Shown: in pieces, positions 1,315-14,475 of the stretch
How the letters are laid out: every line of letters starts with the position of its first letter
Numbering within the stretch: position 1 is the first letter of the stretch
Assembly: GCA_033297075.1 (NCBI GenBank)
Contig: MU858391.1
Coordinates: forward strand, 1 to 14,569
Length of the DNA: 14,569 nucleotides
DNA from: Rhypophila decipiens
Taxonomy: Eukaryota > Ascomycota > Sordariomycetes > Sordariales > Naviculisporaceae
Reading direction: 5' to 3'
The notes under the pieces: model-generated
Told to the model about the DNA's origin: nothing
The model's input: the letters and a program-made list of their open reading frames with translations, nothing else
Database searches by the model: none
Program-made: the position numbers and the translations under genes

Positions 1315-1447
1315 GGCCGTAGCCCACAGGAATTACGTCTCTGATGCTTATACTAGTATCAACTTTAATGTATTATCTTCTTAGTTCATTGAGATTTCCT
1401 CAATATAAACTCCATATCGTTTTACCAGCCCCCAGCACCATATAAGC

Positions 1448-1585
1448 CTCACCTGCTCCCTCCCCGTCCTGCTCCCCGTCTTCCTCCCTGTCCTCCTTCT
1501 CTTTCTGATCTTCCTTCCACACAATCCCTGATCCCCTCCCTATACCAGTCTTCTTCCCCTCTGCCTACACCCACTCACCCACCAC
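1448..1585 (+). promoter_or_regulatory. pyrimidine-rich (CT) leader
   Basis: About 135 bases are almost all C and T, with many CTCC, CCTC and TCTTCC runs, ending in ACCACAG at about 1586. Such CT tracts are typical around transcription starts and 5' leaders of fungal genes, and can also be the polypyrimidine tract of a leader intron. The reading frame of the downstream gene stays open through the tract as far back as 1393, where it would encode a proline/serine-rich segment, so a coding role cannot be excluded. Confidence 0.4.
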
Positions 1586-1590
1586 AGCCT

Positions 1591-2652
1591 TTGAACCGGG
1601 ATGATCGACAGGCACTCAACTCAAGAGAAAAGGCTCCGCCTAAAGAGCAGGAGCGGAGTGAGATTTGCAATCCAACAAATCCACTCCTGCATATCAATTA
1701 TTCCCCTTCTACCTCAAATACGCTAGCTACACAGAGAAATACTACCACTGGTTCACCAATACCGTCGTTGAGCACCCAGAAAACTCAAAATCAGGCGGCA
1801 TCCTCTGATGGAAAGGATGATATCGAAAATTCCGGCAGAACAGCAAACTCCGCCAAGAAGGTTCAGGATAGTCCAAACCAGAAGGAAAATACTACTGGTA
1901 AAGAACAAGACGAAACTCGCCGACCTAATAAACGACAGAAGTTGTTGTCACCAGATGTGATAGTCAACGAGCACGAAAAAACACCTCAACTTAGCGATAG
2001 CTATACTCCAGCCTCGTCCCCAAGCCTGTCTCACCCAGACCCAATGCCTTATGCTGAATACCGAGAATCGCCTTTTTCGGGCACTTTGAAATATACAAGA
2101 GTTGGAGACGATGTCTATTGCACCCTGGAGTTCACCACTTCACGGATCCCAGATTGCCTAGATGTTTCCGAGCTGCCCAAGCTTTGTATTGGTAGAGAAG
2201 TCCGGAAACCACTAGTGACTCAAGAAGCGACACCTAATAGGCGAAAGTCACGTCCTCGAGCGCGGTATATCCTAGAAGATGACCAAAAGCTTATCCTTCT
2301 TAGAGAGAGAGGGTTACTATGGAGCGAGATTGCAAAAGAATTCCCTGAGCGCTCGGAAGGAGCATTAAGACTACGATACTCTATGCTTGGCCCTAGCGCC
2401 AACCAGCAGAGAAAGTCCACTCGAAGTGGGCGAAAAGCGCATCCAGGACGAGACGAGTCTCCGGGCCCGGATAATGACAATAGCGACGAGTATTACCTGG
2501 ACAAGATCTCACGCCATAGAATCGTCGCCAATGGTAGCATAGAGTACGATGTGCTATGGGTCGGCGGCGGTTGCACTTGGGAGCCTCACACTGCAATGAT
2601 GAATACGGAAGCTTTGGAGATCTATTTGCAAAGTTGCCTTCCTCGTGGATAA
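1591..2652 (+). CDS. Myb/SANT and chromodomain protein (5' end unresolved)
   Basis: This is probably a nuclear chromatin- or DNA-binding protein. The N-terminal part (codons 1-150 from 1591) is polar and low-complexity, with a basic PNKRQK nuclear-localisation-like stretch. A short beta-rich segment follows (SPFSGTLKYTRVGDD). A Myb/SANT-like helical region at about 2260-2395 carries spaced tryptophan/aromatic and arginine residues (EDDQKLILLRERG, then WSEIAKEFPERSEGALRLRY). The C-terminus (about 2490-2640) is a chromodomain: YYLDKISRHRI, IEYDVLWVGG, then the TWEP signature and a closing helix. The 1591 codon is TTG, not ATG. The first in-frame ATG is at 2044, which would remove the whole N-terminal half, while the frame is open from 1393. 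The true start therefore probably lies in an upstream exon or the gene is 5'-damaged. The domains are clear; the targets are unknown. The repeat-rich neighbourhood would suit a heterochromatin-related or transposon-derived protein, but that is inference. Confidence 0.7.
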   Translation: MNRDDRQALNSREKAPPKEQERSEICNPTNPLLHINYSPSTSNTLATQRNTTTGSPIPSLSTQKTQNQAASSDGKDDIENSGRTANSAKKVQDSPNQKENTTGKEQDETRRPNKRQKLLSPDVIVNEHEKTPQLSDSYTPASSPSLSHPDPMPYAEYRESPFSGTLKYTRVGDDVYCTLEFTTSRIPDCLDVSELPKLCIGREVRKPLVTQEATPNRRKSRPRARYILEDDQKLILLRERGLLWSEIAKEFPERSEGALRLRYSMLGPSANQQRKSTRSGRKAHPGRDESPGPDNDNSDEYYLDKISRHRIVANGSIEYDVLWVGGGCTWEPHTAMMNTEALEIYLQSCLPRG

Positions 2653-2871: not shown

Positions 2872-3911
2872 TTTGTGCCGGCAGAAAGGATACGTACCCC
2901 CCCTCCCCCCAATAGGGAGATATAAAGAGTACGTACCTACGTACAGCAGTGTCGAGAGGGTTTTCTGCCGGCAGACAGAATACGTACCTAGGCAGCAGGA
3001 AAAGAAAAAAGCCCTATAAAAGGGATTCTGCCGGCAGAAAAGATGCGTACCAAATATGAAGGCAGAAAACAGCACGGCAGGAAGTTTACATACCTACGTA
3101 CAGCAGGGTGGAGACAATTTTCTGCTGGCAGAAAGGATACGTACTAAATCTATGAGAGGGATTCTGGCGGCAGAAAGGATACATACTCAGGAAACAATGA
3201 TAAGTTAGCAAAAAAGGTATGTGGAAGTCTTTCAGGAAAGAGTATGGCAGAATGGGTGCATACTTACAGTACGGCTGAAAGGGCGTTGGGAAAAGTTATG
3301 GTAGGAAAAATACGTACTAGCAGAAAGACTGCCTAAGCGCAGTAGAAAGATTTGGTAAAAATTTTCTGCCAGCAGAAAAGATACAACAAAAGGAATCAAA
3401 CCTATAGAAGAAATTCTGCCGGCAGAAATAGTACACCCTAGATACAGCAGAGTTGAGAGAATTTTCTGCCGGCAGAAAAGATACGTACCTAGCCAGAGGG
3501 ACATATAACGGCAGAAAACAGCACGGCAGAAAAAAGAGTACGTACCTACGTACAGAAGGGTCGAGAAAGTTTTCTGCTGGCAGTAAGGATACGTACCCAG
3601 CCAGAGGGAAAGATAAAGGCAGAAAAGAGCATGATAGAAAGAGCACGTACCTATGAACAGCAGGGTCGAGAGAATTCTCTGCCGGCAGAAAGATTACGCA
3701 CCTAGCCAGCAGGAAAAAGGAACTAAATCTACGAAATGGATTCTGCCGGCAGAAAGATTTGGTATTTTCTGTTGGCAAAAAAAATACAAGACCATGGCAG
3801 AAAAGATACAATATACCTGGGTATAGTACGTGTATGTATGTATGGATCAATGTTTATTCTGCCATTATCGTTTCTTTCTGGGTAGGTACGTATTCTTTCT
3901 GCCGGCAGAAA
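2872..3911. repeat. array of a 16-bp palindrome with flanking GATACGTACC motif
   Basis: At least 13 copies of TTTCTGCCGGCAGAAA or close variants start at about 2872, 2962, 3025, 3119, 3161, 3363, 3413, 3463, 3571, 3676, 3740, 3766 and 3896. The copies at 3463 and 3896 are perfect palindromes. Most are followed on the right by GATACGTACC(TA). Several are preceded by TACGTACAGCAGGGTCGAGAG, and half-sites (GGCAGAAAA, CACGGCAGAAA) fall between them. The copies at 3463, 3571 and 3676 define a higher-order unit of about 105-108 bp. The last copy (3896) has its flank inverted (TAGGTACGTA to its left), so the array is bounded by an oppositely oriented unit. Open frames inside it only mirror the repeat. 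It could be subterminal repeats of a DNA transposon or a satellite. Confidence 0.85.
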
Positions 3912-3955: not shown

Positions 3956-4589
3956 TTTTGCTGTGCTCTTTTCTGTGCATTACGGCACGTGCTTGCTCTT
4001 ACTCCACCTGGAGCTGTTTGTAGCTCTAGGAGCAGCAGGATTATCATGCATCCTTGCAAACCCGTTTCTACACCCATTAATAGCCATTTTTGGCTCTAGG
4101 AATGGCAGGGCTATCTTATCTACCCTTGCAGAACTTGTTTCTGCTGCTAATTTCGGCTTCATATCCCGTCTACCATAGTATTACCTACTTCTTCATCTGG
4201 ATTATGAATACAGTGGACTCCAGAAATGGCTTCTGCAGCATGGTGAGTACTTACCTCCAGAAACGGCTCCCTAGGCACTTCTTCATTGTGGATGTGCTGC
4301 CATTCTCGGAGCCCAGAGCGTTCAGAGATCCAGATACAAAAGTAGGCATTACAAGGGTGGACAAGGTGCCCATGCCATTTCTAGAACGAGAATTGGCTGC
4401 AGAAACAAGTCTTGTGGGGATTGATAAGATACCTCTGACTTTTCTAGAGCCAGATATGGGTCCTACTTGATGTAGAAACAGATCTGCAAGGATACACGAG
4501 GTATTCCCGCTGCTCCTAGAGCCACAAACAGCTCCACGTGGAGTAAGAGCAACCACGTAGCGTAATGCACAGAGAAGAGCACAACAAAA
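3956..4589. mobile_element. foldback/MITE-like element with long inverted repeats
   Basis: Bases from 3956 rightwards (TTTTGCTGTGCTC...) are the inverted complement of bases from 4589 leftwards (TTTTGTTGTGCTC... on the minus strand). The outer 90 bases or so are about 90% identical by hand alignment. Weaker similarity, roughly 65-70%, continues to about 200 bases per arm, leaving a central region of about 220 bases. Each arm is built of tandem modules of about 62-72 bp that start CTCTAGGAG or CTCTAGAAA and contain CCTTGCA and TTGTTTCTGCWGC: two in the left arm and about three in the right. There is no credible transposase reading frame and I could not find a clear target-site duplication, so it is a non-autonomous or foldback element with uncertain exact ends. 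Confidence 0.75.
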
Positions 4590-4929: not shown

Positions 4930-7900
4930 CTAGCTACTCCACGTGGCGACGGTAGTTAAGGAGGATAGCGTATCCGGGTGCTCTTCACCAAGCACTCGCC
5001 GCTGAGCCTCGACACAGTCCCTCATCAGTGCGAAAGCATCTGCGTGCCGACCTTGGCCTTTCCAAGTCAAGGCGAGGTTGTTCATACTGGTCAGCGTATC
5101 GGGATGCTCCTCTCCCAGCACCCTTTTTCTCGTCTCCATCACCTGCACCTCCAGCGACTCGGCCTCCTTCCACCGGCCCTGGTTCCAAAACGTCGACGCC
5201 AGGTTGGCCATGCTGGTAAGCGTCGAGGGATGCTCCTCTCCCAGCACCCTCTTGAACGTCTCCATGACCTGCACCTCCAGCGACTCGGCCTCCTTCCACC
5301 GGCCCTGGTTCCTGTAAGTCGACGCCAGGTTGGCCATGCTGGTCAGCGTCGCGGGATGCTCCTCTCCCAGCACCCTCTTTCTCGTCTCCATCACCTGCAC
5401 AAACAGCGACTCGGTCTCCGCCCACCATCCTTCGTCGTAGTATACACGACCAAGTATAGTACCTACAAAACCATTGTCTTCAGCATGGTCCTCACTTATG
5501 TCCGGAAGATGGCCTACAAGATGTCGCCGGAACTCCGGTTGATCTTCTTCTAGCATTTGACAGCACGTCGCCAAAATAAACCTCATATACCACCACCGCC
5601 ATAGTCGGTCTGGCCTTTTCTGCAATGCTCGCCACTGCACAAGACTGTGCATTGTCACTCCAGGCCACTGCCCTTCTACTCGCTGTATGAGGCTATAGCG
5701 GACCAGAACATCGCGGCTCTTCCGGTACCGGAAACTATCCCATTCGTCCTTGTTAAGTGACAGAAATTGCAGAAGACCGGCCGGCATGGCTTTGTCAACG
5801 TCACCCACTAGCTTAGCGTCGACCTCTGCCATCCCAAGACACGCAAGACGGAACAATTCATCTTCTATGATGCTCCCTTTGAACTGCGCGAGGAACGTCA
5901 GCAGTAGCTCGGGCTGCAGATCGGAATGTTCCCTCGTAATCTTTTCCAGTGTGGTATCCCACACCGTCCACACCGTCTTCTGAGTCGCCAACAAGTCCTG
6001 GAAGCCGACCATCCGTAGGAGCTCATCGCGGTGTCTGTCGTAATCCGCGAGATACGCCGACAACGCACGCTCGGGTGCAGAATGCTCAGATCCAGAGTCA
6101 CTGCCGATGTACGCGCCCGCAAGGTCAATGGCAAGCGCCAAGTACCCAAGTCGTTCCGCTACCTTATCGCAGTCGTGTCGGACCTCCTCCGAAGCCGACT
6201 CGCTGCTGAGATGCACGTGTTGGAGGAGAAGTGCCACTCCTTCCACCGGTGACATGACGTCAACGTGGACTTGCTCGCAGGCCCCTGGGACAAGCCCTAC
6301 GCTCTTGCTGTCTCGACTGGTCACGATGACGCTTCCCCGGTTCCCCTTAGGCATGATCTGCTGGACCCCCCAGCGGACATCGTCTGCATTGTCGACAATA
6401 ACTAGCCACTCGTCGTTCGCCTCTGTTCTATCGCGAAGCCATCGGAGCACTACTTGCACAACTCCGTCAGTAAGAACGGACTCCTGCTTCTCGGCGCGCT
6501 CCTCCGGAAGCCGCAGCTCGGCAGCACATCGTCTGAAGCTAGATTGCACTGACTCCTCGTCTGTCGCGTCGATCCAGAGGATAGGGTTGTATTGATCTTT
6601 GTGCTTCTCGGCGTAGTCTAGTGCCAGCTGGGACTTGCCGGCCCCGCCTAGTCCGTGAAGGGCAACGGCATAGGGCACGCTTCCTTTCTCGTGTCGTATC
6701 TTCATCTTCTGCTTGATTTCCATGGACAGCTCGGCCCGCTTGGTGTAGGTATGGACCGTCTCGAGCGGCACTGCATAGGTCCCTCTTGCCGTCTGGGACG
6801 TCGCCACCACGGCCCGTGCTCTGTCTTCCAGATCCGTATCCACGTCTCGTTTTCCCTCCATCTCCTTGGCTTGAATCATCTCAATGGCTTCGGCAGTCCT
6901 GCCTTGGGCTTTCAAGATAGTACAGAGGCAGTCGAACAGACGCAATGTTTTGCCGCGATATCCGCCATCCAACTCCTTGCTGATCTTGAGCCCGCTTCCA
7001 CATATCTCTTCGGCGTCCTCGTATCTTTGCCCCCCCACAAGCCATTCTGATAGTTCCAACAGGCAGTCCCTGGTGACTGGGTGCTTCAGGCCCTTCAAGC
7101 CCGTGGACAAGTCAAGTCGGTGCCGAAGAAACTCCTCGCCTTGCTCGCTTTCATCACTGAGCACACCGAGCTCGGTGAGATCCCAGTTTTCTGGAACCAC
7201 CAGTTCAGTATCATCTGGACTCACATAGTCATGGTATTCCTCATCAAGATATGATGGTACTGGCGGTACCAGGTTGCCGTCTAACCACCGGCCGGCGGGC
7301 AAGCTGTTGATGTTGTTGGCAGCGCTGGCGCGCGAGCTTGCAGCATCCTCGTCCGCATCGTAAAGGAAGTGGATCGACACCAGTCCAATCTCTTTCAGGT
7401 GCTGAGCAATATGTTTTAGCAGCTCGTTTCGCAAACTCTCGTCGTTCGTGGCCACGGCTGTAGGGCGTCCCTCGGCGTCGGGCTTGAGGATGGCCGCCAG
7501 CTTGTCGGGGATGGAGTTGCAGACTGGACATGTATACGCCGGCCGGGGCGCCTTCACCTCAAACATCTCTTTCCAAGCTTCCAACTCTGGACCTTCGCTG
7601 TACTCTGGGTGCATTTGTTCAATGTGCATCTCGATGGCTTCTTCATCCTCGAACCATTGGTCCTCGCCCTCGCACGCTTGGCAATGCCAGCGGATGGGCG
7701 TGTGTACATCCTGGAGCCAGCCTCTGGAGTGCTCTCGGTCCATATGCGACTTCCATTCTTCGAGCCGGGAAAAAAGTTGAGGCGGCGAGGCGCAATCAGG
7801 CGATATGCACGAATAGAAATGCATGTCCCGGCCAACGTGGAACCTGAGGAAAAGCCGTGTCAGCAAGACACAGCCCAGCACTGAGGAGACAGAAGGAACA

Positions 7901-9058
7901 AGTTGACTTACTCCCACCATTTCTGCGTTTCCAAATCAGCCTTCAAGAAGTGTTTGCAGCAATACGGACAAACGGCATCCTTATCGGTGGGCTCCGTTTT
8001 GGGAGGTTTGGGATACCGCGCGGTATTCGGCGCTGGGACAGACACAACAGAACCACCTTCGAAGAAAGGTTTTTGCGTGTCTGCATATCTGCGTCTTGCA
8101 ACACCGGAGTCGGGGATGCTTGGGGCCGTCTCGGATGGGGCCGGAGGCTGAGCCATGTGTCGAGGAATTGCCGACGGCTTCTGGGCCTTGATGACGGATA
8201 TCGGCGTCGTCGGGGGCGCAACAGGGCCCGGTGCCGCCGGCTCTGGTTTTGCCGGCTGAGCTTGAGAGCTTGGATTGGCGACTTGTTTATGTCCCGTAAC
8301 CCCGGGTATCAGCTCGTGTTTCTTTGCTGCGCGATTCCGCAAGTATTTGATGCGAAGGCAGCGGAACGAAGCAGCACTGGCGAGCTGTCGGCAAAGAGAC
8401 AGGGCCGCCCCGCGGTAACCTTCCTGTCGCGGGCGGTCGACGAGTCGATACCGTAGATGCAGATAGATCATGTCCTCGACATCGCCACTCTGCTTTCGTT
8501 TTGCAAAGGCACTGACCCGTTCTGTCAGAGTATTGACCGAGGACTGCTGGATGGCTGCGCCAAGTCGCAATATGGAATCCACCGCCGACTCGAGTGCCTT
8601 GAGCGACTCTACCAACAAAGAGGAGAGTTCTTCGTTGGGCTCACGCCTCACGCGCTCGACGAGCGTGTTGGCGTCTTGGTCTCGGTCGTCCTCGAGCTCA
8701 GGCTGGTTCTCCAAGCTCTGAACTGTTGAAAGCCAGTTATGTAAGAATCTGCCTTACATTTCGAAAAGAAAAAAAGAAAAAAGATACGTAGGTAACTGAA
8801 CACCGATAAAGACTCACTTAGGAGCAAGTTTCTTTGCATCATCTCCAGTAACTCCAATACCATGCCCCGGAGAGAGTCACTGTAGGCCAGACTGGCATCC
8901 AGGGACAGCTTCGGATCGGCATAGACGCCCAGATTGACGGTCCATCGTCTGAATAACTGACGTAGTGGCTCGACAACAACGAAAACAGCCCGATCCGGAG
9001 TCTGAGTGATATGGCGAAAGACTTCATCGCAACGCCGGGACAATGTTCGAATCTCCAT
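4930..9058 (-). CDS. NLR: helical N-terminus, C2H2 zinc fingers, NB-ARC, TPR
   Basis: A STAND-class intracellular receptor of 1321 aa predicted from three exons: 9058-8818, 8722-7912 and 7843-4930. Intron 1 (95 bp, GTGAGT...CAACAG, phase 1) and intron 2 (68 bp, GTAAGT...CTCAG, phase 2) keep the frame exactly. The ATG at 9058 is the first after an in-frame stop at 9119-9121. Residues 30-75 match the helical N-terminal domain common in fungal C2H2/NLR proteins (LFRRWTVNLG...SLRGMVLELLEMM). Zinc-finger-like pairs are C332/C335/H353 (split by intron 2), C363/C368/H384/H389, C405/C408/H424/H429 and C456/C459/H495/H499. The NB-ARC has a P-loop GLGGAGKS (748-755), Walker B LVIVDNADD (about 831-839), GSVIVTSRD (854-862), a GLPLA-like LGYLALAIDLAG (916-927) and MHS in place of MHD (1082-1084). 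Four TPRs of 42 aa (about 1148-1315) end at the usual DTLSSL...W terminus, so it appears complete. It shares a divergent promoter with the S8 protease. Its ligand is unknown. Confidence 0.9.
5045..5420 (-). repeat. 126-bp in-gene repeats encoding TPR units
   Basis: The 3' end of the NLR coding region is a tandem repeat of 126 bp (42 codons). Each unit encodes a kinesin-light-chain-like TPR with the core RVLGEEHPxTLTSM and NQGRWKEAESL. By hand I count about 14 differences in 126 bases between the units at about 5170-5295 and 5296-5421 (about 89% identity). The outer units are more divergent, and the last one carries the terminal variant ending DTLSSL. Such similarity between adjacent units fits recent duplication or gene conversion, as in other fungal NLR repeat domains. 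Confidence 0.8.
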
Positions 9059-9515
9059 GTCGGGTAAGCCCAAGGGCACAAGTGCACCAGTCGAAGATGT
9101 TGCCCTTGTGATCGCTTCTCAAGCTACCTACTGGTGACGCGGCTATAGTTTGTTGACCTGTTTGGGTCCCTGGTGGTAGGCCAACTTGTCCTGCAGAATC
9201 CCGATGATGCTTTGAAGTTGGGCCCATGATTCAAAGACTGCTCCAATGGCAACATCGTGCAACATGCAGCCACATGCAGTTACCCCTCACGACAGCGAAA
9301 CATGAATGGCGGCGAGATCCCGAGATAAGCGCTGAGGGTTTTGACGACGCTGTGATTGGATAAACCCACCACACCGGGAATATGTTGCGGCCAGATCCGG
9401 CCCGTCACTGGCATTGCCTGACTGCGATCCATCATCATTCTGGCTTTCCTTGGTCAGTTACAACATCAAGACAGACATCACAACCACAAACACGCACTTA
9501 GCAAGAGCAGCAATC
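9059..9515. promoter_or_regulatory. shared divergent promoter region of NLR and S8 protease
   Basis: The 457 bases between the two start codons must hold the promoters of both genes. Visible candidate sites are CCAAT at 9243-9247 (+ strand), ATTGG (CCAAT on the minus strand) at 9355-9359 and a GATAAG site at 9324-9329. An ACATGCAG motif is repeated twice near 9262-9280. There is no clear TATA box. An ATG at 9382 opens a 39-codon frame that closes at 9501, 14 bases before the protease start; if transcription begins upstream of it, it would be an upstream ORF. Assignments are by motif only. Confidence 0.45.
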
Positions 9516-12500
9516 ATGGCCACTCTCGGTTCCCTCGAACAATGGCGTCTCCTGGAGGGAGTGTGCCCCCTTTTCGAGTGTGGAATTCCGTGGACTTCGC
9601 GCACGAAGCGGCCGGTCGACGAACTGGTCATCAAAAACACAGCAACTCTTTTCAAAACCGGGCTTCGGAACCTAAGGCTCGTCGGGCGGCCGGATGGGTT
9701 CATCCCAGAGGATAAGAGGCTCGACGTCGACTATCAGATCGATTCACTACTTTTTCAATTGGAGACATTGCTGCAGAGTTCCGTCAAAGTAGCAAGTGAA
9801 GGTCTAGAGAAGTGCAGTGATGATGAGGTGAGCATTACTTACGTTGATAAATCGCTGCAAGCATGTATCACTGACTTTGTTTCAAATACCTTTTAGAGTG
9901 AGGATACTATATATACTGGCGATGTTGCCACAAGGTATCCCAAGCTTGTGGCTCTTCACAAGTACGTAGACCACCACAGGACCACAATTTCGACCATGGA
10001 CCCCAGTCAACTTGTTTGCCTAGACCAGGACGCTGTAAAATTCAAGAAGGTATACTACGGCATCACCGTTTGCCTCAAGACGATAGAAGGCGTGAACAAC
10101 CAAGACTCACGCGATCTCGCGTCGCCAGCCCAACAGAGCAGAGCGCGGGCTGGCGTCAGTCAACTCAGCAGTTCATTTCAAACTCACTCGCGCCGCTTGT
10201 TTGGATCTCTGGTGGGCCATATCAGCCCTTGCGTGTCCAGGGGGGCCAGGCACGAAGCCATGCTTCAGCTCAAGTACCTCGAACACCGCGGGGACCCAAT
10301 ACAAAGCCCCGAGCTCTCGTTGCTGCTGGCCTTATGCCCGGATCAAGGACTCTGGCAGCAAACACAGTGCAGCGAGCTTCAAGACCAAGAGTATGAACGC
10401 TACTGTTAAATTACGGAATCATCAAAGCTGACCAGTAGGCAGGGAAGATGAGGATTGTATAGAAGAGGTCAGGGTGGGCCACCTCTGCAGCCACGCTAAG
10501 ATAGCACATGACAACAACCAGATCTTTCGCATTCAGTTGGGTGTGGATCGCGTCCTGGACGCATCCGATGATGCATACCGACCGGACAACCCGGGAGCCA
10601 CACCTATAGTTTCATTGTCTGACCTCGTTGCCAAAGGCCTGTTCAAGGACCAAAGCAAGGTTTTCCCCGACGACAAGAGAGTCCTTGCATACACACTTGG
10701 CCACGCCTTGTTGAACTTATACGAAAGCGACTGGCTTCAAAGACTGTGGACGCTGGAAAACATTTTTCTTCCCTTTGTGGCAGACACCAACATGGTTTAC
10801 AACATCCACCAGCCGTATATTGTTTGCAGTCTCTCCATGGAAAGGCCGGCGCTCGGGACGCTGGATGCTCTGCACAAGTATCCCCTGATTCTGTCGTTTG
10901 CTAAACTGCTCTGGGAGATCGAGACGGGAGAGCAAGTGCACCAACAGACGTGGAGGAAATACAAAAATGGGCAGCCTAGCCTCTGGTGGACATTGAAGGG
11001 ATACTTTAAAACCGATGCCAAGCTGCGAGTCATTGGCGGATACCGAAAGGCGATCGAGGCCTGCCTCGACTTCTCGGCCCGCTTTGAGAGGGAGCGGAAT
11101 CGGAACTCGACAACGACAGTCCAGCACGCCATCCTCAAGTACATTGTGCACGAGCTCGAGACTGAGGTCTACTTGGACGAGCGAAATGAGAGGTGGGGAA
11201 AATGCAACATTGGCTTGCCCGCTGCCTACGCCATTTCAACCCGTGTCTCCGGCGACCGGGATAAGGCGTCTAGCCTTGACATGTCCCCTGGACGAGCAGC
11301 ATCTCCTACCGGTACGGCTGCCTCTTTTCGGCAAAATCCCCCCCGTACGTCGAGAGTTGTGGCAGTTCCTGTCAAGCATGGAGCCATAACAAAGCCCATT
11401 CAGGACACAGCCGCTGGTCTGGGAATCACCCGCCCTTCCACAAGAGGCAGCCCAAGTAACAAGCTACCAGCATCTCGAAGGCCACCGCTACGGCCTAACC
11501 ACACAGCTCACAAGCCACCGCTGCCAGCCAGAGGGGTATCGGACAACCAGAAGACGACACAGAAACACCGAAAACAATCTCGAGTAGTCCAAAGAACACA
11601 TGGAAACAACCGTTCTACCTTGCCATCCCCTCCCCTTCCAGGGCGGAGTGTATCGCCAATTCCGGTCCATGGACGCAGCAGTGAATCTGAGGATGACGGC
11701 AAGCAAGATTCTCCAAGCAGGAACACCAACAGTAAGACCCCTAATGCCTCCCTGTTACGCAAATCAACTTACATCTCTCCAAGACAAGGTCATAAAGGTA
11801 AAATCGGGGTTCGGACACACGAGGCTTTTTAGCTGTACGGATGCAAGGTGAGTTGTCTAATTCCAACCATGGTATAGAAAGCGGCTGAGACTGAAGGCTC
11901 TAGCGTGCAAATTTCCGCCGAGACCTTCGACTACCTGAACAAGACGGTCGACGAATACTGGCAACATTGGGAGAAGGACAAGGCAATCAAGGTTGCCATC
12001 CTCGACACCGGGATTGACATTGAGCATGCTGATTTCAAGCGGGCGAGAACCAAAACCTTTACAGGCCCACAAAGAAACATTCCAAATCCACCGGAAGGCG
12101 AAACGGCCCAGAAGGCTCGCATCATAGCCTGCAACAACTTTTGTCCCGGCCAAGAAGAAACAGACGTCAGCGATGTTGACGGCCATGGCACACAAGTTGC
12201 AGGTATCATCTTGCGACTTGCACCTCACGCTCAGCTCTATATCGCCCGTATATGCGCTGGAGATGCGAACCGAGGGCTCCCGCCAGAGAAACAAGTCTCG
12301 ATGGAGAGGAAGATATATGACACGCCACAGCCAGAGATAGTAGAGAGGGTAGGTGGAGATTACTCCTAGGACATAGTTCCCATTTCTAATGTGAAGCCTT
12401 CTCTCAACAGGCAATCGAATGGGCCCTCGAAATCGGAGTTGACATCATCAACATGTCCCTGGGCTTCCGCAACTGCCCGGAAACCAAGTTGAAGGGCGTC

Positions 12501-13052
12501 CGCCGCGCCCTTGAAAAGGCCCAGGAACAAAAGGTTGTCGTCTTTGCAGCTACATCCAATGAAGGGCTGCACGAGCCAGTAGCATGGCCGGCGTGCGATC
12601 GGCAGTATGCCCTTGGCATCCACTCGTGCGGCGACAGCGGGAGGAAGGCTTCAGACTTTAATGCGCTGCCTTCAATACATGGTGAGAACTTCATGGTGGT
12701 TGGCGAGAATATTCTATCACAGTGGCCGACGGATAAGGGTGGTGGGTTTCGAGTTGCCACTGGCACCTCATTTGCAGCGCCTGTTGCCAGCGCCATCGGG
12801 GTTTTGATCCTGCAGTTTACGCGGCAGAAGCTGTGCAAGCTACACCACCAAAGCGTCGGCAAACTCATCCGACTGGAGGATCTCTGGACCAACGTGGGTA
12901 TGATGAAGGTATTGCGAGCCATCAGCACGCTCGTGGATGACGAGTTCTGGTCCATCAGCCCCAAGCTGTTTTGGAGAGATGCGCTCCCTAGCGGACGTGA
13001 CAAAATACAGCAGGCGTGGGACGTCATTGAGGTTGCTCTTCAGGTTAGCTGA
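9516..13052 (+). CDS. DUF7580 / subtilisin-like (peptidase S8) protein
   Basis: An intracellular-type subtilase of about 1081 aa with no signal peptide. Predicted exons are 9516-9827, 9897-10390, 10443-11731, 11784-11847, 11904-12348 and 12411-13052. Introns 1 (GTGAGC...TTTTAG), 2 (52 bp, GTATGA...GGCAG) and 5 (62 bp, GTAGGT...CAACAG) are phase-consistent. The 11732-11903 part is less sure because the upstream frame meets TAG at 11830. Residues 1-270 are a helical N-terminal region. Residues 325-520 match DUF7580 (VSLSDLVAKGLF, RVLAYTLGHALLNLYESDWL, FAKLLWEIETGE). Residues about 520-700 are a Pro/Ser/Arg-rich linker. The protease domain has Asp754 (AILDTGID), His814 (DGHGTQVAG), an oxyanion Asn918 (AATSNEG) and Ser988 (GTSFAAP), so the triad is intact. 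The layout resembles the HET-Q2-type protease partners of fungal gasdermins. Its likely substrate is the gasdermin-like product next door, inferred from position. Confidence 0.85.
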
Positions 13053-13104
13053 GATGCCTATGGCTTATCTAGAAGCGCTGTAAAATATCCAATTCGCTTG
13101 CACC

Positions 13105-13151
13105 TGTCAGAATATTCGGTGTCGCTCGGAAGAATACATGTTCCTGTTTGT
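13105..13151 (+). repeat. 47-bp direct repeat, left copy
   Basis: Begins TGTCAGAATATTCGGTGTCG and ends CATGTTCCTGTTTG. It is repeated at 14429-14475 with a single visible mismatch (C to T at the 21st base). The two copies bracket the gasdermin-like gene in the same orientation. Flanking bases do not match beyond the repeat. Confidence 0.85.
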
Positions 13152-13251
13152 GAGGGATTTGTCATCAATTGGAAATCTTGATAATCATCTTTGTCATTGG
13201 CTTAGTCATGTTTGAGATTGGTATTGCACCATGTATAGTTATAAGAGAGCT

Positions 13252-13270
13252 TCTCTGGCGAAGCCAGAGA
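13252..13270. terminator. 8-bp hairpin between convergent genes
   Basis: TCTCTGGC, a GAA loop, then GCCAGAGA form a perfect stem between two convergent stop codons. It could fold in either 3' UTR. Fungal polymerase II does not need a stem-loop to terminate, so a role in 3'-end formation or RNA stability is only a guess. Confidence 0.25.
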
Positions 13271-13337
13271 GCAGAGGAGGAGGATCAATTCAATCACAAT
13301 CAATTCAAGAAGCAAGTGCCATATTCCCACAGCACCA

Positions 13338-14207
13338 TTATGCGCTTGCAGGAGAGCTGCTTGACACATCATCCGTCACTTCAAAAGTAAAAAGATCCCT
13401 TGTTTCGGGGTCTTCGTCCTCAAACCACTCAAACGTAGGAATAAACACCACTCCATCGTCACCACCCCCAGACTTGTCTCCATCCCGACCAAACAGCGCC
13501 GAGTCCGTGAAATTCCCCTTGTCATCAAGTCTCCCACGCAACTTGGAGTAAAAGAATTCGCGCACGCGATACGCAAAGTCGCACGCCTCATCAACTTCAA
13601 ACTCAGTCTCGGTCCCCGCATCACGCCGCCTCTCAAAAGTCGCCTCGGCTTCACCAAGACCACCAGGGAGCGCTGCAACGGCGCTCGCCTCGATGGAACG
13701 GCCCGCCGACTTTCCCTCGCGGACCGATAGCTGACCCGCTGTCGCAGTCCCGACAACGACATACAGAGACTTGCCGAAGGCGCCCTTCCTCGCGTACTCT
13801 TGCACTCTCTTGTGCCGGAGCGCTTCGTCCATGTACTCCTTGCTCGGAATGAAGACGGTAGCACGCACATCAACGGCATCAACACTGGTTGAGACGTTGC
13901 GCTCGCGGCCCGCTCCGGCGGATGCTCCGAGCTCTGTGTTAAACAGCGCGGCGATGGCGGGAACGGCTTTGGCGAGGAAGCTGTCGGATATGCGCAGTTC
14001 TGCGTCAACGTGGCGTTTGACAGCGGCCGAAGCGTCGCGCTTGCTTTCGGCGGGGATGGGCGGGATGGCGTCTAGGTTGAGGGATGATTCTAGGTCTGCT
14101 GGGTCGGTGAGGATGCTGCCGAGACGCATGATGGAGCCGGGCGTTTCCGGGTAGCGCGGCACTACCCAGAGCATTGGGCCGGTGATTTGTCCTGGGCGTT
14201 GGGACAT
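13338..14207 (-). CDS. gasdermin-like protein (HET-Q1/RCD-1 type)
   Basis: A single-exon gene of 289 aa with an ATG at 14207 and TAA at 13338. Fungal gasdermin-like proteins stay inactive until a short C-terminal segment is cut off, then form membrane pores and kill the cell, usually in allorecognition. Visible family-like blocks in order are PGSIMRLGSILTDP (23-36), VRATVFIPSKEYMDEAL (114-130), GKSLYVVVGTATAGQLSV (145-162), DFAYRVREFFYS (210-221) and FTDSALFG (233-240). The length fits the family (about 250-290 aa). The tail from about 241 is strongly acidic (about 14 Asp/Glu against 3 Arg/Lys) and ends in a Ser-rich stretch, as expected for a removable inhibitory tail, although the cleavage site cannot be read from sequence. 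There is no signal peptide. The gene lies 285 bp from the S8 protease, tail to tail, and is bracketed by a 47-bp direct repeat. The family call rests on remembered motifs, so an unnamed fungal family is the alternative. Confidence 0.72.
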   Translation of the reverse strand: MSQRPGQITGPMLWVVPRYPETPGSIMRLGSILTDPADLESSLNLDAIPPIPAESKRDASAAVKRHVDAELRISDSFLAKAVPAIAALFNTELGASAGAGRERNVSTSVDAVDVRATVFIPSKEYMDEALRHKRVQEYARKGAFGKSLYVVVGTATAGQLSVREGKSAGRSIEASAVAALPGGLGEAEATFERRRDAGTETEFEVDEACDFAYRVREFFYSKLRGRLDDKGNFTDSALFGRDGDKSGGGDDGVVFIPTFEWFEDEDPETRDLFTFEVTDDVSSSSPASA

Positions 14208-14428: not shown

Positions 14429-14475
14429 TGTCAGAATATTCGGTGTCGTTCGGAAGAATACATGTTCCTGTTTGG
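14429..14475 (+). repeat. 47-bp direct repeat, right copy
   Basis: Same sequence and orientation as 13105-13151 with one mismatch; the copies are 1324 bp apart. It abuts the second GGGTACCCG-rich repeat, whereas the left copy is not followed by one. Confidence 0.85.

Follow-up and report, generated by a model that had tools for sequence, protein, structure and literature searches.

What controls the protease that frees a fungal gasdermin, and what does such a protease answer to? Passages of a 2025 review count among the open questions how gasdermin-activating proteases are controlled and which stimuli act on their sensors (PMC12881547). The stretch of DNA analyzed here, called the window, is a whole 14,569-bp contig (G000:C347) from the 45.7-Mb, 408-contig genome of Rhypophila decipiens. 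Frames, splice sites and Pfam matches place three neighboring genes with intact frames on it, as a first-pass annotation had claimed: a NOD-like receptor (NLR) gene, a gene for an S8 protease fused to a DUF7580 domain, and a gasdermin gene. The gasdermin–protease part is an already known arrangement. What looks new is the company that the protease keeps on its other side; DUF7580 genes of this genome are paired with genes that carry a zinc-finger module, and gasdermin, protease and zinc-finger gene stand together at all three gasdermin loci found. This recurrent partner gene beside the protease offers a definite target for deletion or co-expression.

The three genes of the window

Is the executor really a gasdermin? 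The 289-residue product of the gene at 13338..14207 (minus strand, no intron needed), earlier called gasdermin-like from motif blocks, matches the HET-Q1 pore chain (9uv9) in a search of PDB sequences with E = 1.7e-55 over residues 9-239, and RCD-1-2 with E = 2e-4; by sequence it is nearer to HET-Q1 than to RCD-1. A structure comparison had been proposed as a check on this claim, and a Foldseek search with the predicted model bears it out, finding the gasdermin fold in the N-terminal domain. The candidate P1 residue is F239 (codon 13491..13493, minus strand), chosen from the point at which the aligned 9uv9 chain ends, from conservation and from the P1 of HET-Q1, which is F238 in the passages compared (PMC10989679). 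Phenylalanine occupies this position in 32 of 35 gasdermin sequences, with tails of 26-100 residues across the set, and the window protein has a short C-terminal tail behind it; a cut after F239 would remove residues 240-289 (13341-13490), i.e. 50 residues. The gene is flanked by 46-bp direct repeats that are 98% identical to each other (13105..13150 and 14429..14474, both plus strand), between which recombination might delete the gasdermin cassette. On contig C222, close to its DUF7580 gene, lies an 83% copy of a separate stretch, 13170-13326 (L051 676-834).

The protease gene (9516..13052, plus strand) has six exons (9516-9827, 9897-10390, 10443-11731, 11784-11847, 11904-12348 and 12411-13052), and its 1081-residue translation equals a public R. 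decipiens protein (P0036) letter for letter. An earlier splice model of 1073 residues, with which the protease homologue search was run, was replaced by this public version, which the DNA reproduces. The protein begins with DUF7580 (10164..11169, plus strand; two exon matches) and continues through a linker into the S8 domain (11980..12821, plus strand; two exon matches), the Pfam values per exon open reading frame (ORF) being 2.6e-40 and 6e-13 for DUF7580 and 7.4e-10 and 1.2e-12 for Peptidase_S8. The catalytic triad is intact (D754, H814, S988), and S8 catalytic motifs are present at all four S8-DUF7580 loci of the genome. In the published HET-Q2-like (Q2L) kind, the gene of an S8 or CHAT protease lies no more than 10 kb from that of a gasdermin; here the two stop codons are 285 bp apart, and with its S8 domain and triad the protease fits that kind, in keeping with the parallel to HET-Q2 drawn in the first-pass annotation. 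The DUF7580 domain is weakly kinase-like (hhalign 79%, 1.6e-5; one of ten members also matches Kdo/Pkinase), a likeness that is only suggestive. A fold for DUF7580 was sought in a full-length model and dropped (pLDDT 38.9, four sequences); that fold search covered the S8 part only.

Divergent from the protease lies the NLR gene (4930..9058, minus strand; exons 9058-8818, 8722-7912 and 7843-4930), with 457 bp (9059..9515) between the start codons; both this spacing and the 285 bp between stops, given in the first-pass annotation, follow from the gene coordinates. Its 1321-residue product has the layout of a fungal NLR, an N-terminal part followed by NB-ARC (6109..6684, minus strand; 2.6e-12) and by TPR repeats (4972..5454, minus strand; TPR_10 9.7e-55). 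The first-pass annotation did not mention that the long N-terminus contains zinc fingers. This C2H2 module starts at residue 328 and spans 7314..7982 (minus strand), split by the intron 7844-7911; it is drawn from the module alignment and from search matches at 7309-7866 and 7908-7982, and a Pfam scan of the N-terminal part gave no family above cut-off. At the other end of the protein, part of the TPR region is encoded by tandem units of 126 bp (5064-5426; 2.9 copies, 86% matches), and such internally similar repeats could differ between strains. Gene models other than that of the protease are our own, and most partner genes elsewhere in the genome were read as ORFs.

Zinc-finger partners of DUF7580 genes

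Does the third gene belong to the other two? The genome, whose counts are all lower bounds, yields three gasdermin loci: the window and contigs C363 and C163, the latter two being gasdermins by profile (98.0% and 97.3%); a match on C92 (E 0.08) was left out. Against PDB sequences the C363 protein is clear (RCD-1-2, 3e-10). All three gasdermin genes have a neighboring S8-DUF7580 gene and, divergent from it, a gene with the zinc-finger module; the gasdermin gene is convergent with the protease gene in the window and at C363 and in tandem with it at C163. The remainder of the partner differs, however. At C363 the zinc-finger protein continues into a protein kinase (1.2e-14), and at C163 a Pfam scan recognized no further domain. 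The three-gene module proposed in the first-pass annotation is supported in that a third gene recurs, but what recurs is the zinc-finger N-terminus and not the NLR, which is one form of the partner. A fourth S8-DUF7580 gene, at C208, also has a zinc-finger partner.

The pairing extends to DUF7580 genes in general, with or without a gasdermin. Pfam finds 19 DUF7580 matches at 18 loci (counting C154, whose match falls below the curated cut-off), and zinc-finger queries from the window, C363 and C329 find 18 loci at E ≤0.01; a fourth query, from C4, added no locus at that threshold, and C74 (E 0.84) and C36 (E 0.2) were left out. At 12 of the 18 DUF7580 loci (C347, C208, C67, C163, C363, C222, C247, C329, C72, C176, C4 and C39) a zinc-finger match lies 1.0-4.2 kb away, head-to-head in 12 of 12 cases; the pairs at C67, C72, C176 and C247 are known from search coordinates only. 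Chance would place 0.07 pairs within 5 kb, and without the three query loci 9 pairs are observed against 0.05 expected, figures that overstate independence, to the detriment of our argument, because the paired loci are paralogues. Eight modules of this genome and that of P0052 (Annulohypoxylon) share Cys/His positions in an alignment, in which the C39 module is without the middle part. All of this evidence for pairing comes from the gene order of one genome, that of R. decipiens.

What is kept in these pairs, and what is exchanged? On the DUF7580 side, the domain is joined to S8 at the window, C363, C163 and C208; at C222 a patatin (1.1e-9) lies in the adjoining upstream ORF of the DUF7580 gene; and at C329, C4 and C39 a HeLo-like N-terminus precedes DUF7580 as judged by eye, with no Pfam HeLo match in the pieces scanned. 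A WD40 part at C39 is likewise a reading by eye. Domain content was read at the DUF7580 loci other than C139, C117, C323 and the four known from search coordinates. On the partner side, the module is followed by NB-ARC-TPR in the window and by a kinase at C363, shares a 979-residue frame with ANK repeats at C247, and at C39 stands in an ORF next to one with a NACHT domain (NPHP3_N, 6.1e-31), the two ORFs probably being one gene. In other words, domains have been exchanged on both sides while the pairing was kept, and this is our main reason for thinking the pairing functional.

Two further observations concern members of these families. At C301:17936-18484 (L029), 619 bp of the window NLR gene (7228-7846) recur at 99% identity, starting near the exon 3 border and adjoined by inverted TPR-coding pieces of 80-89% identity; this is a recent rearranged partial copy, rejected as a further partner gene and kept among the 18 zinc-finger loci as unpaired. 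At three of the DUF7580 loci that lack a zinc-finger match, a gene of protein-kinase type is divergent from the DUF7580 gene or close to it, namely at C154 (L046/L047; kinase, 1.6e-9), C6 (L040/L041; kinase-TPR, 1.8e-11, in an ambiguous arrangement) and C129 (L052; a kinase-like and an ANK piece by eye in the 1.6 kb read). Together with the partner kinase of C363, these neighbors suggest a kinase/pseudokinase logic.

Readings of the pairing

We think it somewhat probable that the window encodes a death module resembling pyroptosis, with the NLR as the protease's standing partner. The gasdermin would be made with some 50 inhibitory residues at its C-terminus; an active S8-DUF7580 protease would cut after F239; and the freed residues 1-239 would form membrane pores, killing the hyphal compartment. 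The helical and zinc-finger N-terminus of the NLR may dock with the DUF7580 protein and restrain or assemble it, the NB-ARC-TPR part would sense the trigger, and control would run from partner to protease. The labels "immune" and "allorecognition" are given by analogy. A wider reading, which we offer tentatively as a serious possibility, is a modular paired immune system, in which a kinase-like DUF7580 regulator would govern a death effector (S8 protease with gasdermin, patatin or HeLo-like membrane domain) and be encoded head-to-head with a zinc-finger partner, the sensing or signaling part of that partner being interchangeable (NB-ARC-TPR, NACHT, ANK or kinase); the window would then be the version that couples an NLR to a protease and a gasdermin encoded separately, in an inflammasome-like order. 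If the pairing is functional, one partner family would preside over several killing mechanisms in one fungus, and its NLR version would be a fungal parallel to the mammalian NLR, separate protease and gasdermin.

Several findings weigh against the death-module reading. A zinc-finger match is missing at six of the 18 DUF7580 loci (C139, C117, C6:31030, C129, C323 and C154), and six of the 18 zinc-finger loci have no DUF7580 match (C301, C245, C276, C1, C6:90262 and C116). At C208 neither the ORFs of at least 150 residues in 38000-56000 nor the gasdermin queries revealed a gasdermin, which means that zinc-finger partners are not confined to gasdermin loci. Searched against PDB sequences, the C163 gasdermin gives a weak match (0.0055) despite its profile value, and the model of the window gasdermin reaches modest Foldseek TM-scores (0.37/0.47 in the best row). 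Outside this genome, none of 50 NLR matches is placed on a same-sized contig as any of 35 gasdermin matches; among those 50, P0052 alone extends over most of the query, with 48% identity across 71% of it.

Could the NLR simply have landed there? The genome has at least 164 NLR-type NTPase matches, and a point chosen at random would have about 0.07 of them within 10 kb; with such proteins so common, a neighboring NLR is slight evidence by itself, and the zinc-finger module common to the paired loci is the stronger. A chance neighbor, plausible from NLR density, is countered by that shared module and by the fixed orientation. The same evidence bears on a related alternative, which we judge unlikely while giving it real weight: gasdermin and protease alone would form the unit, DUF7580 would serve the protease as its built-in sensor, and the zinc-finger NLR would be an independent immune gene, remaining close by since genes of this sort accumulate in fast-evolving regions. 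The passages compared describe published clusters as two-gene units (PMC10197012, PMC12881547), and the abundance of NLR-type NTPases and the contig placements just mentioned agree with this, but an independent NLR does not account for a module that is head-to-head, in one orientation, at 12 of 18 DUF7580 loci, also where no gasdermin is seen.

A partner that acts on the gene and not on the protein is less likely still. C2H2-type fingers can bind DNA, and the head-to-head genes, with their 457 bp between starts, could share a promoter on which a DNA-binding regulator controls expression of the DUF7580 gene. However, the same proteins have parts of the kind usual in cytosolic signaling (NB-ARC-TPR, kinase or ANK), and in the modules scanned no classical C2H2 DNA-binding Pfam family rises above cut-off. 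We also regard it as improbable that the pairs are neutral remnants of an old paired duplication with no joint function. The loci are paralogues, and fragments are still being copied, as at C301, but adjacency and orientation have been kept in 12 pairs despite divergence (identity to the window of ~29-37% for the zinc-finger module, the window itself and C301 left out; 29-41% between loci for S8 exons and 13-27% for DUF7580), and both sides have exchanged domains. Finally, a selfish killer-and-resistance cassette, for which one could cite the repeats flanking the gasdermin gene and a small contig beside repeats, is very improbable, as nothing points to drive and the passages compared describe gasdermin–protease clusters as defense or allorecognition units (PMC12881547, PMC10197012).

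Known systems and the surroundings of the cluster

How does the proposed NLR–protease–gasdermin module compare with what has been described? In the passages compared, >80% of fungal gasdermin genes cluster with protease genes, ~63% with S8, some of the proteases being part of NLRs, and two- or three-gene clusters and kinase-like fusions are mentioned (PMC12881547, PMC10197012). Like HET-Q1/HET-Q2 of Podospora anserina and the Q2L clusters in those passages, the window has a HET-Q1-type gasdermin by an S8 gene, Phe at P1 and a short tail (PMC10989679, PMC12881547, PMC10197012), whereas its 1081-residue protease is fused to DUF7580 and HET-Q2 is reported to have 388 residues; the divergent zinc-finger NLR gene also sets it apart, a separate zinc-finger partner being absent from the passages compared on Q2L clusters (PMC10989679, PMC12881547, PMC10197012). 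RCD-1 of Neurospora crassa differs, in the passages on it, in that two allelic forms activate it without cleavage (PMC12881547). The proposed order of NLR, protease and gasdermin would be that of mammals, here in three separate genes, whereas fungal proteases in the review passages are fused to the receptor (PMC12881547, PMC10197012). MLKL-like proteins, as described there, combine a membrane-killing domain with a pseudokinase (PMC12881547), which recalls the weakly kinase-like DUF7580 behind the HeLo-like N-termini seen by eye at C329, C4 and C39; in the window, however, DUF7580 is joined to a protease, and its kinase likeness is suggestive.

Sordariales NLRs include NB-ARC/TPR forms and, in the part of the survey compared, C2H2 fingers in 34 cases, with the fingers C-terminal in 52 of 57 zinc-finger NLRs and a head-to-head order in 13 of 225 two-NLR clusters (PMC12258605). 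By contrast, the window module is N-terminal, and its head-to-head neighbor is a DUF7580 gene, not a second NLR. The words gasdermin, protease and Rhypophila are absent from the main text of that paper, and the open-licence PMC literature searched, mostly by title, yielded no description of the pairing and no mention of DUF7580 by name. In other fungi, the relatives of the gasdermin (P0003) and the S8-DUF7580 protein (P0037) in Coniochaeta ligniaria lie on equal-sized contigs (1,343,909), and those of gasdermin and S8 in Aspergillus pseudodeflectus (P0017, P0040) have consecutive ids and equal-sized contigs (764,384), the S8 protein being without DUF7580.

The cluster is bordered on its left by repeats. 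Between 2869 and 3924 about a dozen palindromes of the TTCTGCCGGCAGAAA type are scattered, and the same stretch includes a 108-bp tandem array (3443-3717); 3956-4589 holds long inverted repeats (88 nt, 90%; 109 nt, 75%) that are foldback-element-like. Farther out, a 419-residue open frame (1393-2652, plus strand) has a Myb-like DNA-binding domain right at the cut-off (22.9 bits).
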